Source of the DNA: Thermoleophilia bacterium
Lineage (GTDB): Bacteria; Actinomycetota; Thermoleophilia; BMS3ABIN01
Direction of reading: 5' to 3'
Length of the DNA: 34,155 nucleotides
NCBI GenBank assembly: GCA_014874175.1
Contig: JACWAD010000079.1
Span: forward strand, 1-34,155
The position numbers and the translations under genes were made by a program. This document shows positions 11,480-16,173 of the stretch, piece after piece. Positions within the stretch are counted from its first letter, which is position 1, and each line of letters begins with the position of its first letter. Under the pieces are notes generated by a model. The model had not been told where the DNA came from, ran no database searches, and saw nothing but the letters and a program-made list of their open reading frames with translations.

Positions 11480-11804
11480 CGGGCGGGCTTCCCCCCAAGG
11501 GAGCATGATTTATGACGGTCTTGTGTTATTTCCCGCGTCCGTGTATGCTTATTTGCACAAAATAGGCACAGTCTCAGCAAACACGGTCCATAGTCACAGG
11601 GGGCTAGGGGTATAAGGGGGGAAGTTCGTGTTGCAGTGGCTTGGTGCGCGGTAGGCGCGCGGGCTTTGCACCGGCAAGCGAGCAACTGAAATCTGCGGTT
11701 TTGAACTCTCGAACTTTCCCGGAGGCGTTAACAGGCAGGTTGCGCATTGGCGCGGCCAATTGCCTATAAGAATTGTTGCGCGCAAAAAAACGGAGGTTTC
11801 GGTC
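11480..11804. other. 325-bp gap: leader region of secreted-protein gene
   Basis: No gene is supported here. Two things can be seen. First, a possible stem-loop at 11643-11672 closed by GGTGC/GCACC. Second, a block at 11699-11731 with TTTGAACT, AACTTTCC, GGAGG and GTTAAC in order; the same series recurs at 16246-16283 upstream of the dCMP deaminase. A Shine-Dalgarno GGAGG at 11792-11796 serves the next gene. Confidence 0.5.
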
Positions 11805-13502
11805 TTGAGAAAAATAATTACAGCTCGGGCGCTTGCTTGGAAACTGTTGCCGGTTGTGGCTCTTTCATGCCTGCTGGCAGCGCTTGCCATTGCCGGCAGC
11901 GCCGGCGCGGTCCAGATTATGCCGGGTCCCAAGACTTATTATTTCACCTGGTATGACTCCACGGCCGTTGACGGGATGCAGGGCGACTGGATCGTCATCG
12001 GCAACCTGGAGAACAGCGCCGCCAGCGTGCAGGTGTTTTTTGGCAGCTCGGCCTCGCCGCGGGAATCGTTTACCCTGGGGCCCCTGGGGCGCCAGGTTGT
12101 CAGCTGGCCCAACACGATGGGGGGGCCGGTTAAAGTAGTTTCCACCGGCGGACAGGCGCTGGTTGTCACCCAGCGGGTCATTCACAATGGCTATTTCAAC
12201 GAAGTTGCCGCTATTATGAACAACAATCTCGATTCCTCTTATTATTTTGACTGGTACGACTTTACTCCCCGGGACAGCATGAACGGCAACTGGATCCTTA
12301 TCGCCAACGAGGACAACCAGGCGGCCGCGGTCAACGTTTATATTGGCAACGGCACGGCGCCCGTCCGGTCTTTCAATCTGGCGCCGGGGCAGTTTGTGAC
12401 CCCTGAGTTTCCCGGCCTGATGGGCGGACCCGTTCATGTCGCCAGCGCGGGCGGCCAGAAACTGCTTGTTTCCCAGCGCGTTCTTTACAAGAGCAGCTTT
12501 AATGAGGTGATGGGCTTTCCCGAAAGCCGCCTGGACAGCGTCTACTATTTCGACTGGTATGACATGACCTCGGATTTCAGTGCCGGCAACTGGATCCTGG
12601 TTGCCAATCCCAATAATGCGCCGGTGCAAGCCAAGGTCTTTATCGGCGGCAATTCCAATCCACGGGGAACGTACACTCTGGGGCCGCACCAGATTGTCAC
12701 GCCCACGTACGCCGGCCTGATGAACGGGCCTGTGCGGGTTGTCTGCACGTCAGGCTGCGCGGCCGGCGGCAAGCTCATTGTCAGCCAGCGCATGCTTTAC
12801 AAAAACTCGTTTGAAGAAGTCCAGGGTACGCCGCCGGCCGGCCTGGACACGGAGATGGACTTCGGCTGGTACGATGAGCAGACTCCCGGCATGCAGGACT
12901 GGCAGCTTATCTCCAATCCCGATCCGGCCTCGCCCGGGGCGGCGGTGAACGTTTACATGAACGCATCGCCAAGCCCCGTTTATTCGACGGCGATTCCCGG
13001 TGGCGGCCGGGTTACGCCCCAATTCCCCGGCGTGATGAACGGTCCCGTGGATGTGATGGGCGGGGGGTTGCTGCTGGCCAGCCAGCGGGTGCTTTACAAC
13101 AGCACCAGCTTTAACGAGCTGGTGGGACTGCCGCGGTACGCCACCGGCCAGCAGGCGGGTGCGCCGGGGCCGAATATGCAGTTGCTGTCGGCCATCAACA
13201 TCTATTGGGCCAGCACGGCCGATTATGCCAGCGGCACGCTGTCGGTTGACTTCCGTATCATGAATTATGGAACAGAAGAGGCGCTGGCGGCGTCGGTGGA
13301 CCGGGTGGACGCCAACAACAGCGTCACATCTGTCTCCCCGCTGCCCATTTCGCTGGGCAATATCGACACTCTTCCATTTCAAGGCAAAACCTTCACGATC
13401 AAGTACCATGTGCTGCAGGGCGTGCAGTCTTTCCACACGACAGTTTACGCCCATTGCCAGGACAGCAGCGGCAACACTTACTACTACCCCGGCAAGCCCT
13501 GA
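11805..13502 (+). CDS. secreted protein with four ~100-residue SQR repeats
   Basis: No named family is recognised. The 565-residue product starts at TTG 11805, eight bases after GGAGG, and has a signal peptide (basic start RKIITARALAWK, hydrophobic LLPVVALSCLLAALAIAG, cleavage near AGA-VQ). Then come four tandem repeats of about 100 residues starting near residues 46, 148, 249 and 352. Each reads roughly FxWYD, then NWILIAN, a short beta-rich part, PGxxVTPxFPGxMGGPV, and SQRVLYxxSFNEV. The C-terminal 115 residues look like a different beta-sandwich domain (YASGTLSVDFRIMNYG). A cell-surface or extracellular role, perhaps adhesive, is inference from the layout. The same repeat occurs in the next gene. 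Confidence 0.85.
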   Translation: MRKIITARALAWKLLPVVALSCLLAALAIAGSAGAVQIMPGPKTYYFTWYDSTAVDGMQGDWIVIGNLENSAASVQVFFGSSASPRESFTLGPLGRQVVSWPNTMGGPVKVVSTGGQALVVTQRVIHNGYFNEVAAIMNNNLDSSYYFDWYDFTPRDSMNGNWILIANEDNQAAAVNVYIGNGTAPVRSFNLAPGQFVTPEFPGLMGGPVHVASAGGQKLLVSQRVLYKSSFNEVMGFPESRLDSVYYFDWYDMTSDFSAGNWILVANPNNAPVQAKVFIGGNSNPRGTYTLGPHQIVTPTYAGLMNGPVRVVCTSGCAAGGKLIVSQRMLYKNSFEEVQGTPPAGLDTEMDFGWYDEQTPGMQDWQLISNPDPASPGAAVNVYMNASPSPVYSTAIPGGGRVTPQFPGVMNGPVDVMGGGLLLASQRVLYNSTSFNELVGLPRYATGQQAGAPGPNMQLLSAINIYWASTADYASGTLSVDFRIMNYGTEEALAASVDRVDANNSVTSVSPLPISLGNIDTLPFQGKTFTIKYHVLQGVQSFHTTVYAHCQDSSGNTYYYPGKP

Positions 13503-13560
13503 GCAGGTTTTCGGGAACATTCGCAGCAGCGGCAAAAGGCTTGTAATTTCAGGTAAATAT

Positions 13561-13600
13561 GGGGGATGATTTCGCGGCCCTTGCCGCGAAATCATCCCCC
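13561..13600. terminator. perfect 18-bp stem-loop after the first secreted-protein gene
   Basis: GGGGGATGATTTCGCGGC (13561-13578) is perfectly complementary to 13583-13600 around the loop CCTT. It lies 58 bases after the stop codon. No T-run follows, so it may be a 3'-end-stabilising or dispersed hairpin rather than a classical intrinsic terminator. Confidence 0.5.
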
Positions 13601-13777
13601 AAGCCTTGGCTGACAATCGGGCAATATCCGCGAGGAACCTGCCGGATAGGCACTAAACATTTGCCAACATTATTTAACCATGCCCTAACTTGACTTGGCG
13701 GCTGCAGGCCGTTAATTTAAATAAACCGCTGCTCTTCGTAAATCCCCAGAAACAATCTTTGTTTTTTGCTAATCTTT

Positions 13778-13855
13778 GAGGTGTAAAGGCAGAGGCGGGA
13801 GCGCCGATGAAAGACTGGGCCGCAAGGCCGTAAAGATGACGCCTCCCGGTTCTCA
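13778..13855 (+). promoter_or_regulatory. structured leader, candidate c-di-GMP-I (GEMM)-like riboswitch
   Basis: The 5' leader contains AAAGGCAGA, a hairpin GGCG/CGCC (13794-13805), a strongly purine-rich joining segment GATGAAAGACTGG, a hairpin GGCC-GCAA-GGCC with a GNRA tetraloop (13818-13829), then TAAAGATGACGCC and CCGGTT. The order (GGCA, hairpin, GAYGxAAAGxC, tetraloop hairpin, GATGxC, GGTT) recalls the c-di-GMP-I aptamer, whose common targets are secreted and surface proteins. Several consensus positions differ, so it could be a divergent member or another structured RNA. A second hairpin CCCGGG-GAAA-CCCGGG (13867-13882) lies between it and the ribosome-binding site at 13901. Confidence 0.4.
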
Positions 13856-13910
13856 TATTGTCCGGCCCCGGGGAAACCCGGGCAATCAACCCGATCATTT
13901 AGGAGAGATG

Positions 13911-16130
13911 ATGAAGGAAGTTTTTTCGCTGCGGGTCCTGTTATCGCTGCCGGCGCTGGCGGCGGCTTTTTTGGTTCTGACAATTTTTCCCTCAATATCA
14001 ATGGCGGCGGTCTGGAGTTCCCAGCCGGGCGTCACAACCAATAGGCTGTTTAGCATCAAGTTCGTGGACCAGAACCACGGCTGGGCAGTAGGCGACAGCG
14101 GCACTATACTTGCCACCACCAACGGCGGCGCCAGCTGGAGCGTCCAGCCAAGCGGGACGACCAGTTTGCTTTATGGCGTCAGCTTTGTGGACAAAAGCCA
14201 CGGCTGGGCTGCCGGAGCAGGCGGCACCATCCTTGCCACTACAAACGGCGGCGCCAGCTGGAGCGTCCAGCCAAGCGGCACGACCACCGATCTTTACCGC
14301 GTCTTCTTCCTGGATTTAAACCATGGCTGGGCCGTGGGGTATAACGGCACCATCCTTGCCACTACAAACGGCGGCGCCAGCTGGGGCGTCCAGCCAAGCG
14401 GCACGACCAACTGGCTTGCTGATGTCATTTTCACAGACCGGAACCACGGCTGGGCTGTCGGCACCGGCGGCACCATCCTTGCCACCACCAACGGCGGCGC
14501 CAGCTGGAGCGTCCAGCCAAGCGGCACAACCAATACGCTTGTGGGCGCCAGCTTCGTGGACCAGAACCACGGCTGGGCAGTTGGCGGCGGAGTGGCGCTG
14601 GGCGGCGGCTCCGGCGGCGGCACAATTCTTGCCACAAGCAATGGAGGAGCCACCTGGATTCCGCAGGCAAACGGCTGGGTTTATCGGTTTGACGGCGTCT
14701 GCTTTACGGACCAGAACCACGGCTGGGCAGTAGGCGACAGCGGCACTATACTTGCCACCACCAACGGCGGCGCCAGCTGGAGCGTCCAGCCAAGCGGGAC
14801 GACCAATAGCTTGTTTAGCGTCAAGTTCGTGGATCAAAGCCACGGCTGGGCTGCCGGCGCCGGCGGCGCCATCGTTGCCTACAGTCCAAACACTTCCTAC
14901 TGGACCTGGTACGACAACGTCGGCGGCAGTAACTGGGTGCTAATGGCCAATCCGGCCGGGGCTGCAAACAACCTCACCTACAAGCTTTCCATTGGCGGAA
15001 AGGCCATGAGCCTTCCGGGCGGCGGCGTTGTTACTCCGGGGCACTCCATTACGCCCGTCTACCCCGGTGTCATGGGCGGCCCGGTAGTGGCCACAAGGAC
15101 ATCGGCCGGCAGCGGCATCCTTTCCCAGCGCAGCCTCTGGCCCAAAGGGGGAAGCTCCATGGAAGAGGTCCCCGCAACCAACCAGGGCCGGCTGTCGAAC
15201 CATTTCTACTGGACCTGGTATGACCAGAACAGCCCCGGCATGACCAATTGGGTGCTTGTGGCAAACCCGGGTGTGGATCATAATGGTAATTCCCAGGGCG
15301 CGGTATCGGCCATGGTCAAGGTTGCCGGGGTTCCGGTCTGGTCAGGATCGATCGCCCCCGGCGCGAACATTACACCAACTTTCCCCGGGAGGATGGGCGG
15401 CCCGGTGGAGGTTATCTCCAGCGGCGGGGACGTCCTCGCCTCCCAGCGCGTTCTCTCAGGCGGCGGCTCCGCCTTTAACGAAGTGCCGGGCATCCCGGCC
15501 GCCGAGCTATCGGACCACTACCTCTGGACCTGGTACGATAACGCCTCTGCCGGCGCCACTGACTGGGTGCTTATCGCGAATCCAAACGCAACTGCGGTTA
15601 CCGCGCATATCAAGATAGCCGGCGCCCTCCACTGGAGCGGAAACATTGCCCCAGGAGGAAAAGTCACCCCCACTTTCCCGGGAGTGATGGGCGGACCGGT
15701 GGAAGTCTGGACCGACTCGGGCAGTCCCGTGATCGCCACCCAGCGCTCCCTCTTTGGCCCCTCCTTTGAAGAGGTGCCCGGCCTGGCCGCCTCAAAGGTC
15801 CCGGGAGGCTACTCGGCCCTTCTTTCCGACTACAACTGGACCTGGTACGACCAGAACAGCCCCGGCATGACCAACTGGGTGCTTGTGGCAAACCCCGGCT
15901 ACAACCATGCCGGCCAGGCCCAGGGGGCGGTAACTGCCCACATAAAGGTCGCAGGCGCCGACCGCTGGGACGTGACTATCGGCCCGGGGCAGAGCGCCAC
16001 CCATACCTTCCCGGGGCTTATGGGCGGCCCGGTGGAGGTGACCACCAACAACTCCGGCGACCTGATGGCTTCCCAGCGGGTGCTTTACAACGGCTACTTC
16101 AATGAGGTGCTGGGGACGCCGCTACAGTAA
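13911..16130 (+). CDS. secreted seven-bladed Ycf48-like propeller plus four SQR repeats
   Basis: The 739-residue product begins with a signal peptide (hydrophobic LLSLPALAAAFLVLTIF, cleavage near SMA-AVW). Residues 33-325 hold seven HGWA motifs, usually followed by GTILATTNGGASW, the pattern of Ycf48/BNR-type beta-propeller blades; seven copies would close one propeller. Residues 330-739 hold four repeats of about 104 residues (WTWYD near 330, 434, 539, 643; GGPVEV; SQRVL; FNEVPG), the same family as in the preceding protein. ATG 13911 is five bases after AGGAG; ATG 13908 is an alternative. Blade DNA is nearly identical in places, a sign of recent internal duplication. Binding or surface-structure roles are inferred; no enzyme motif is seen. 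Confidence 0.85.
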   Translation: MKEVFSLRVLLSLPALAAAFLVLTIFPSISMAAVWSSQPGVTTNRLFSIKFVDQNHGWAVGDSGTILATTNGGASWSVQPSGTTSLLYGVSFVDKSHGWAAGAGGTILATTNGGASWSVQPSGTTTDLYRVFFLDLNHGWAVGYNGTILATTNGGASWGVQPSGTTNWLADVIFTDRNHGWAVGTGGTILATTNGGASWSVQPSGTTNTLVGASFVDQNHGWAVGGGVALGGGSGGGTILATSNGGATWIPQANGWVYRFDGVCFTDQNHGWAVGDSGTILATTNGGASWSVQPSGTTNSLFSVKFVDQSHGWAAGAGGAIVAYSPNTSYWTWYDNVGGSNWVLMANPAGAANNLTYKLSIGGKAMSLPGGGVVTPGHSITPVYPGVMGGPVVATRTSAGSGILSQRSLWPKGGSSMEEVPATNQGRLSNHFYWTWYDQNSPGMTNWVLVANPGVDHNGNSQGAVSAMVKVAGVPVWSGSIAPGANITPTFPGRMGGPVEVISSGGDVLASQRVLSGGGSAFNEVPGIPAAELSDHYLWTWYDNASAGATDWVLIANPNATAVTAHIKIAGALHWSGNIAPGGKVTPTFPGVMGGPVEVWTDSGSPVIATQRSLFGPSFEEVPGLAASKVPGGYSALLSDYNWTWYDQNSPGMTNWVLVANPGYNHAGQAQGAVTAHIKVAGADRWDVTIGPGQSATHTFPGLMGGPVEVTTNNSGDLMASQRVLYNGYFNEVLGTPLQ

Positions 16131-16133
16131 CAG

Positions 16134-16173
16134 ATCAGCGCAGGGGCGCGGCATGCCGCGCCCCTGCGCTGAT
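16134..16173. repeat. perfect 40-bp palindrome
   Basis: The 20-bp half ATCAGCGCAGGGGCGCGGCA is followed directly by its reverse complement with no spacer. It starts four bases after the propeller-gene stop codon. It may act as a transcript-end hairpin; no T-run follows. Confidence 0.75.

Follow-up and report, generated by a model that had tools for sequence, protein, structure and literature searches.

Two adjacent proteins with four-unit repeat arrays in a Thermoleophilia bacterium and the likely place of their repeat in the ASRAH superfamily

Two adjacent genes encoding tandem WYD repeats

The DNA analyzed (34,155 nt; hereafter the window) came from contig JACWAD010000079.1 of assembly GCA_014874175.1 (Thermoleophilia bacterium), and two neighboring genes on its plus strand encoded the proteins P0001 and P0002, each carrying a tetrad, i.e., four tandem copies of a ~100-residue repeat (WYD repeat) at a spacing of 100-105 residues. 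The first open reading frame (ORF; 11760-13502, +) had a probable start codon TTG at 11805 with GGAGG at 11792, and the second one (13776-16130, +) had a probable start codon ATG at 13908/13911 with TAGGAG at 13900, all starts being chosen from the sequence. P0001 (11805-13502, +) displayed a signal-peptide-like N-terminus, repeat unit 1 (11937-12239, +), unit 2 (12240-12542, +), unit 3 (12543-12854, +), unit 4 (12855-13154, +), and a C-terminal tail of ~115 residues (13155-13499, +). P0002 (13911-16130, +; 13908 as the alternative start) displayed a signal-peptide-like N-terminus, a Ycf48/BNR-type propeller region (13998-14885, +; edges approximate), and repeat unit 1 (14895-15203, +), unit 2 (15204-15518, +), unit 3 (15519-15830, +), and unit 4 (15831-16127, +), the last reaching the stop codon. 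Units were delimited by repeat spacing and unit alignment, and both N-termini were hydrophobic and judged by eye to be signal-peptide-like. A preliminary description of the window had reported eight copies of a motif-sharing repeat, four in each of two adjacent secreted-type proteins, and this was borne out by the spacing and by 12 invariant columns (see below); its propeller was recovered as well, with PF14870 matching the N-terminal half of P0002 (E 1.6e-30), and the NCBIfam Ycf48 model gave 1.3e-33, yet far below that model's cut-off. The P0001 tail, called a beta-sandwich in that description, had no Pfam match.

Across the eight units, the 12 invariant columns were W, Y, D, W, N, M, G, P, V, Q, R, and E, the mean column identity was 49%, and the motifs FxWYD, NWxLxANP, FPGxMGGPV, and SQRxL...FNEV were all seen in units, with variants; chance is no explanation for such a repeat. 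Units in the genomes of the closest relatives were recovered at E 9e-43 with a profile built from the eight (a match to the window's own units being trivial, since they made up the profile). Three charged residues, D8, R81, and E90 (model numbering), were invariant in 123/123 window-type units. Pfam and NCBIfam scans of P0001 and P0002 assigned the repeat to no family, and when the PDB was searched by sequence with one protein, the 8-unit profile, and a 123-unit profile, nothing credible emerged for it; the difficulty met in the preliminary description, which could not place the repeat in a named family, was thus real. The hits set aside were (i) PLipase_C_C (E 0.033), taken as chance because it was below its cut-off and spanned 40 residues of one unit, and (ii) norovirus capsid (0.093) and aspergillopepsin (0.71), both from PDB by sequence, together with designed immunoglobulin (Ig) proteins (0.0037 in the 123-unit PDB search, with no single stretch above threshold), all regarded as chance or composition. 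When IMG/VR was scanned with a single peptide pattern taken from these units, a weak test, eight stretches were returned, none of them a confirmed relative.

Intermediate repeats, predicted fold, and the ASRAH superfamily

A search with the 8-unit profile covered 396 genomes of the phylum; at most 12 candidates were scored per genome, so that match counts were lower bounds. The profile matched 38 genomes: 7 from the family of the window and 31 from eight further families, the latter all in other classes of the phylum (E 7e-7 to 8e-4). Twenty-three 3-kb loci were fetched from other families, chosen for their profile match and examined on both strands; the match sat within tandem arrays in every one of them, the array type being WYLAEG...FETWVLxQNPG...SRxTV...DVS...VxERxMYWN (WYLAEG repeats). 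All 23 of these loci gave ORF-level matches below 1e-3, whereas their reversed sequences gave none (best 0.28). Profile-profile comparison by hhalign aligned the eight window units with the WYLAEG repeats at 96.3% and E 1.7e-9, and the 123 window-type units with them at 96.0% and E 4.1e-9. In the reverse direction, a WYLAEG profile matched 8/12 genomes of the window's family and 0/8 other genomes of the same class.

The WYLAEG repeats led in turn to described families. All five bridging proteins scanned were above the curated cut-off (26.2) of PF18986 (DUF5719), and one of the five was just above that of PF07100 (Anabaena sensory rhodopsin transducer, ASRT; 26.1 vs 25 bits). The top solved-structure match of the WYLAEG profile was 1nc7, Thermotoga TM1070 (E 0.001), with ASRT 2ii7 third (E 0.048); the second in that PDB list, streptococcal R4 surface protein (0.0088), had no single stretch passing and was set aside as chance or composition. 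The invariant N of the bridging repeats aligned to N32 of TM1070 (numbering from PMC2739507). DUF5719/WYLAEG repeats resembled the window units in being tandem ~100-residue units, often four and mostly near the C-terminus: exactly four matches were present in 16/24 WYLAEG ORFs, 12 of these 16 ending at most 21 residues from the ORF end, and the others had five matches (four ORFs) or two or three (four ORFs), some being cut by the 3-kb loci. The two types differed in sequence, WYLAEG...SR...ER.MYWN against WYD...GGPV...SQR...FNE, and the window units themselves were below PF18986, with no match of P0001 or P0002 at E up to 1; a PF18986 scan of 20 relatives' genomes gave 0, though no positive control responded in it. 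The profile search that had been proposed as a check in the preliminary description therefore found no described family directly, but linked the repeat indirectly to DUF5719/ASRT through the WYLAEG repeats.

A single-unit AlphaFold model was built from P0001 unit 2 (beginning one codon earlier than the aligned unit) with 123 aligned units, no template and no ASRT sequence being supplied; it had a predicted local distance difference test score (pLDDT) of 94.5 and a predicted template modeling score (pTM) of 0.85, and DSSP assigned it seven strands of at least three residues plus short bridges. In Foldseek against PDB, the three top places went to chains of 1nc7, with E values between 3.4e-3 and 7.8e-3 and a probability of 1.00. 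VIA-align gave Z 11.0 for 1nc7 (96 of 102 residues, root-mean-square deviation 3.1) and Z 7.6-7.8 for four ASRT entries, for which the program's own warning applies that Z below 8 may mean merely a common arrangement; the first unrelated row had Z 6.7, and lectins and carbohydrate-binding modules (CBMs) were among the lower-ranked neighbors (Z 4.6-6.3). The ASRAH-type fold of the repeat is well supported by these model comparisons, TM1070 being the best PDB match of one predicted unit.

The ASRAH (Anabaena sensory rhodopsin transducer-like) superfamily of De Souza, Iyer, and Aravind (2009) is described as having a TM1070-type beta-sandwich of eight strands, with a near-invariant Asn ending strand 2 and, where strand 1 begins, a conserved Trp preceded by a polar residue; its secreted members occur in dyads or tetrads, tetrads fused to amidases are described, actinobacterial members are reported as lipoprotein dyads, and its domains are predicted to bind sugars (PMC2739507). 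Besides the overall TM1070 fold of the unit model (1nc7 top in both Foldseek and VIA), the window-type units had (i) Asn in 121/123 cases, with N24 closing strand 15-24 of the model, its second long one, (ii) the four-fold arrangement of secreted ASRAH members (see below), and (iii) sequence homology to described members via the WYLAEG bridge only. A Trp, W6, was present in 122/123 units, after T/S/D in 104/123 and next to the model's first strands, and may correspond to W7 of TM1070. The ASRT-like family of the superfamily has the signature SHEshChhN, whose His and Cys line the pocket (PMC2739507). These residues, His25 and Cys29 of TM1070, were absent from the window branch: T, G, K, R, and others but no His occupied the former place, and the latter held L in 113/121 units and Cys in one. 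The loss of these pocket residues places the repeat outside the ASRT-like family and leaves its likely membership of the wider ASRAH superfamily unaffected.

The intermediate-repeat profile chain and the predicted fold together indicate that the repeat most likely represents an extracellular and divergent offshoot of the ASRAH superfamily (ASRT, TM1070, and DUF5719-type); the statement that it belonged to no named family held for direct matches to curated models and failed for this indirect placement. The branch shared with the secreted amidase-linked ASRAH family the fold (by model comparison), the occurrence in secreted fours, the strand-2 Asn, and fusion to Amidase_2 (here in L054 and L116), and it differed from that family in being too diverged for current models, in lacking the pocket residues of the ASRT-like family, in being fused to many kinds of proteins, mostly at the C-terminus, and in doing so in actinobacteria, for which that paper has lipoprotein dyads. 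TM1070 (1NC7) and ASRT (2II7), to which the unit model was structurally closest, are single-domain, intracellular, and tetrameric (PMC2739507), in contrast to four units in one predicted-exported chain in the window proteins. A literature search found no papers on DUF5719, and the topics WYFAEG/WYLAEG/DUF1362/ASRT/ASRAH led only to PMC2739507 among the papers listed; relative to that paper, the wide C-terminal use and the ASRAH link of the actinobacterial repeats appear to be new, neither having been found in the literature searched. DUF5719, a "family of unknown function," and a sequence group lacking any model would hereby come together under a single fold whose role can be tested.

The four-unit block, its partners, and its proposed role

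The tetrad survey covered 45 loci in 13 metagenome-assembled genome assemblies (titles such as Actinomycetes, Thermoleophilia, and Gaiellales bacterium), with ORFs taken from stop to stop; at least two of these assemblies were the family genomes G001 and G002, so the locus and genome counts given here are not independent. Exactly four full units were present in 43/55 unit-bearing ORFs. The remaining 12 did not show exactly four full units and were left out of the C-terminus count: six ran into the locus end and six were short, with one or two units; L048, which runs into its locus end, had four full units plus a fragment and then 309 further residues. Among the 43 tetrad ORFs, the distance between the last unit and the ORF end was 0-11 residues in 38, 23 residues in one, and 116-1201 residues in four (L039 and L078, both orthologs of P0001, L054, and L055). 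The window's 1.78-Mb genome had nine intact arrays, all of four units, and four further loci with partial or broken ones. Units at the same position of different proteins had a mean similarity of 0.433 against a shuffled-position maximum of 0.404 (500 shuffles; tetrad pairs at least 60% identical left out, 911/990 pairs kept), so the four-unit block is inherited whole; units 2-4 within one protein were also alike, at about 0.50. The tetrad is a module of set size that in most cases sits at the C-terminus. The preliminary description had seen in the repeat a general extracellular building block of the lineage, and this stood as to breadth (nine intact arrays and many unrelated partners) but not as to a freely used single unit, the repeat coming as a block of four.

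Several arrays were damaged: a beta-helix-like gene with its tetrad broken into several frames (L118 6832-8411, G000:C29) lay ~5 kb from an intact tetrad gene of the same contig, and tetrad-unit fragments or interrupted arrays were found in L123 (G000:C21), L122 (G000:C96), and L128 (5810-8825), the last three suggesting decay or recombination of tetrad genes.

A model of the P0002 tetrad (14895-16127) had pLDDT 95.2 and pTM 0.91, so the predicted arrangement of its four units is well defined; its PDB matches, complement C3 and similar multi-domain chains with a top TM of ~0.16, were not meaningful. Such a high pTM would also suit a rigid spacer or oligomerization stalk that binds no ligand and keeps the N-terminal domain off the wall or pairs proteins, and so would the structural look of many conserved residues (W, Y, G, and P) and the lost TM1070 pocket. 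A spacer or stalk would be expected in variable numbers between domains, contrary to the observed four units in 43/55 ORFs lying within 11 residues of the C-terminus in 38/43, and the invariance of the charged D8, R81, and E90 also speaks against it; this explanation is unlikely.

Partner domains were sought with Pfam in 37 of the 43 tetrad ORFs, in L081 (cut by the contig end), and in seven proteins of the window's genome. The partners were (i) M4, S8, and A4 peptidases, (ii) a kumamolisin activation domain in two tetrad proteins, the catalytic domain not being reported in those scans, (iii) peptidoglycan-type domains, namely Amidase_2 with SpoIID, SLT, and glucosaminidase-like domains (one of four above cut-off), and (iv) CAP, Ycf48/Vps10 and PD40 propellers, FG-GAP, beta-helix, multicopper oxidase, and Ig-like domains; 6/38 scanned ORFs and 3/7 window-genome proteins had no Pfam match at E 0.01. 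Amidase_2 and SpoIID are domains usually linked to peptidoglycan, and the order Amidase_2-tetrad-SpoIID, a rare case of an internal tetrad, was seen in L054 (3667-7512) and L116 (2491-6297). The presence of several wall hydrolases among the partners, the lectins and CBMs among the lower-ranked structural neighbors, and the predicted sugar binding of ASRAH domains (PMC2739507) would all be in keeping with a carbohydrate-binding module that aims enzymes at an external substrate, such as extracellular polysaccharide or the walls of other cells, rather than at the cell's own surface. The peptidases, propellers, CAP, and beta-helix partners had no evident common substrate, and a common location fits them better than a common external substrate does; we regard targeting of an external substrate as improbable.

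Within the window's family, a 451-residue P0001 fragment had matches in 10/11 other genomes and in 0/8 other genomes of the same class (11/20 in all when the window's own genome is counted), and a broader profile found nothing in G009 or those eight genomes (no positive control in that run; 46 matches of this profile in the window's own genome). SLH and CWB2 blocks are wall anchors of other monoderms. Like the tetrad, their triplets have a set number of repeats and are found on many exported proteins of unrelated kinds, as a rule at one end; they differ in that P0001 and P0002 had no Pfam match to SLH or CWB2 and that neither family was detected in the 12 family genomes (each 0/12 at the Pfam cut-off; controls responded). 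This absence is compatible with the tetrad as a main anchor and is not proof of it. LPXTG-type anchors were found in 1/12 family genomes. C-terminal domains serve as signals for type IX secretion, and a C-terminal tetrad on many unrelated proteins, in genomes that contain sortase genes, might likewise be a sorting signal recognized during export by a dedicated secretion or attachment machine. Four globular domains of ~400 residues in all are large for a signal, the ends listed for tetrad proteins of the window's genome were not LPXTG-like (0-4 residues after the last unit in 6/7 of the intact arrays covered there), and the named neighbors of the locus were glyA and genes for a deaminase, a glycosyl transferase, and ATP synthase; a sorting function is very unlikely.

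Taken jointly, these results make it reasonably probable that the repeat forms an ASRAH-branch, four-unit C-terminal module that binds an envelope glycan and retains secreted proteins at the cell surface. Proteins with a C-terminal tetrad would be exported; four units in one chain would plausibly be the in-chain counterpart of the TM1070 homotetramer; the exported tetrad would bind a cell-envelope glycan (peptidoglycan or a secondary polymer); and this binding may hold varied secreted enzymes and propellers non-covalently at the surface, by analogy with SLH/CWB2 blocks elsewhere. We infer ligand and retention from the predicted sugar binding of the superfamily, the SLH-like design of a fixed number of units at the C-terminus, and the partners' lack of an evident common substrate. 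A more tentative proposal, which we hold as a possibility somewhat short of probable, is that the tetrad represents an unrecognized class of non-covalent anchor, a pseudo-tetramer whose inter-domain clefts bind wall glycan, serving as the main retention device in a family of uncultured actinobacteria where SLH and CWB2 were not found, and that the WYLAEG cousins act likewise in several other families of the phylum. If the tetrad is an anchor, it would explain how an uncultured actinobacterial group retains extracellular enzymes and would give a rule for reading genomes, namely, that a C-terminal tetrad marks a surface protein; it would also put to the test what was predicted in 2009, namely, glycan binding by ASRAH domains outside the cell.

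Several observations weigh against surface retention by an ASRAH-type tetrad. As to fold and homology, the best Foldseek E value for 1nc7 was only 3.4e-3, with no match below 0.001; the fold match of the unit model is only partly independent, since AlphaFold was trained on PDB structures; nothing in the PDB matched the tetrad model meaningfully, so the tetramer-like packing is a supposition; the window units had no direct significant sequence match to ASRT or DUF5719, so the sequence link needs the WYLAEG bridge; and the reverse WYLAEG search missed the window's own genome and three more family genomes. As to placement and distribution, the C-terminal rule did not hold for P0001 and its orthologs, L054, and L055; no tetrad was found in the family genome G009, which is 86% complete; and the distribution was patchy, distant relatives occurring in other classes and either repeat type in 0/8 other genomes of the same class. 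As to anchoring, sortase was found in 12/12 family genomes and LysM, one match each, in 11/12, so other surface routes exist, and 6/8 other same-class genomes also had no SLH (the other two had it, one with 67 matches), so SLH absence is not special to tetrad genomes. As to the ligand, His25 and Cys29 are lost, so any ligand must be held differently from that in TM1070, and even for TM1070 nothing but 1,2-ethanediol is shown as a ligand (PMC2739507).

Gene neighborhood and other features of the window

In 9/9 relatives examined, a P0001 ortholog was located downstream of glyA; it had four units and a 112-121-residue tail, and the gap between the two genes was below 0.6 kb in seven relatives and 2-3 kb in two (L129 and L131). 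A second unit-bearing gene came next in 6/6 relatives whose contig continues: it had an intact tetrad ending 2-3 residues before the stop in four (L124, L126, L127, and L131), was interrupted between frames in L128, and was cut by the contig end in L132. Genes for dCMP deaminase, Glycos_transf_4, and ATP synthase then followed in 5/5 relatives reaching that far. An operon with the downstream Glycos_transf_4 gene was considered and rejected: the gene order is conserved, but the stretch is housekeeping, which makes this order weak evidence for glycan binding.

Perfect inverted repeats were located just after the stop codon of each tetrad gene, at 13560-13601 and 16134-16173 (19-nt and 20-nt arms); they could be terminators, although no T run is evident, or else small mobile repeats. 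A riboswitch-like leader of the P0002 gene, proposed by eye, was rejected: it had no Rfam match and folded no better than shuffles (z -0.32), and its motif was present in 6/132 loci only, all copies of the same stretch in the window's own genome. Upstream of the P0002 gene, the box ATTTGCCAACATT..TTTAACC...CTAACTTGACTTGG (~13663-13700) was conserved above its surroundings in the alignment with L039 and L042 and is, by its conservation, a candidate promoter or operator. Rfam applied to 15 loci, six of them from the window's genome, detected one signal recognition particle (SRP) RNA and two tRNAs, and Rfam also located a tRNA gene at 653-726 of the window on the minus strand.

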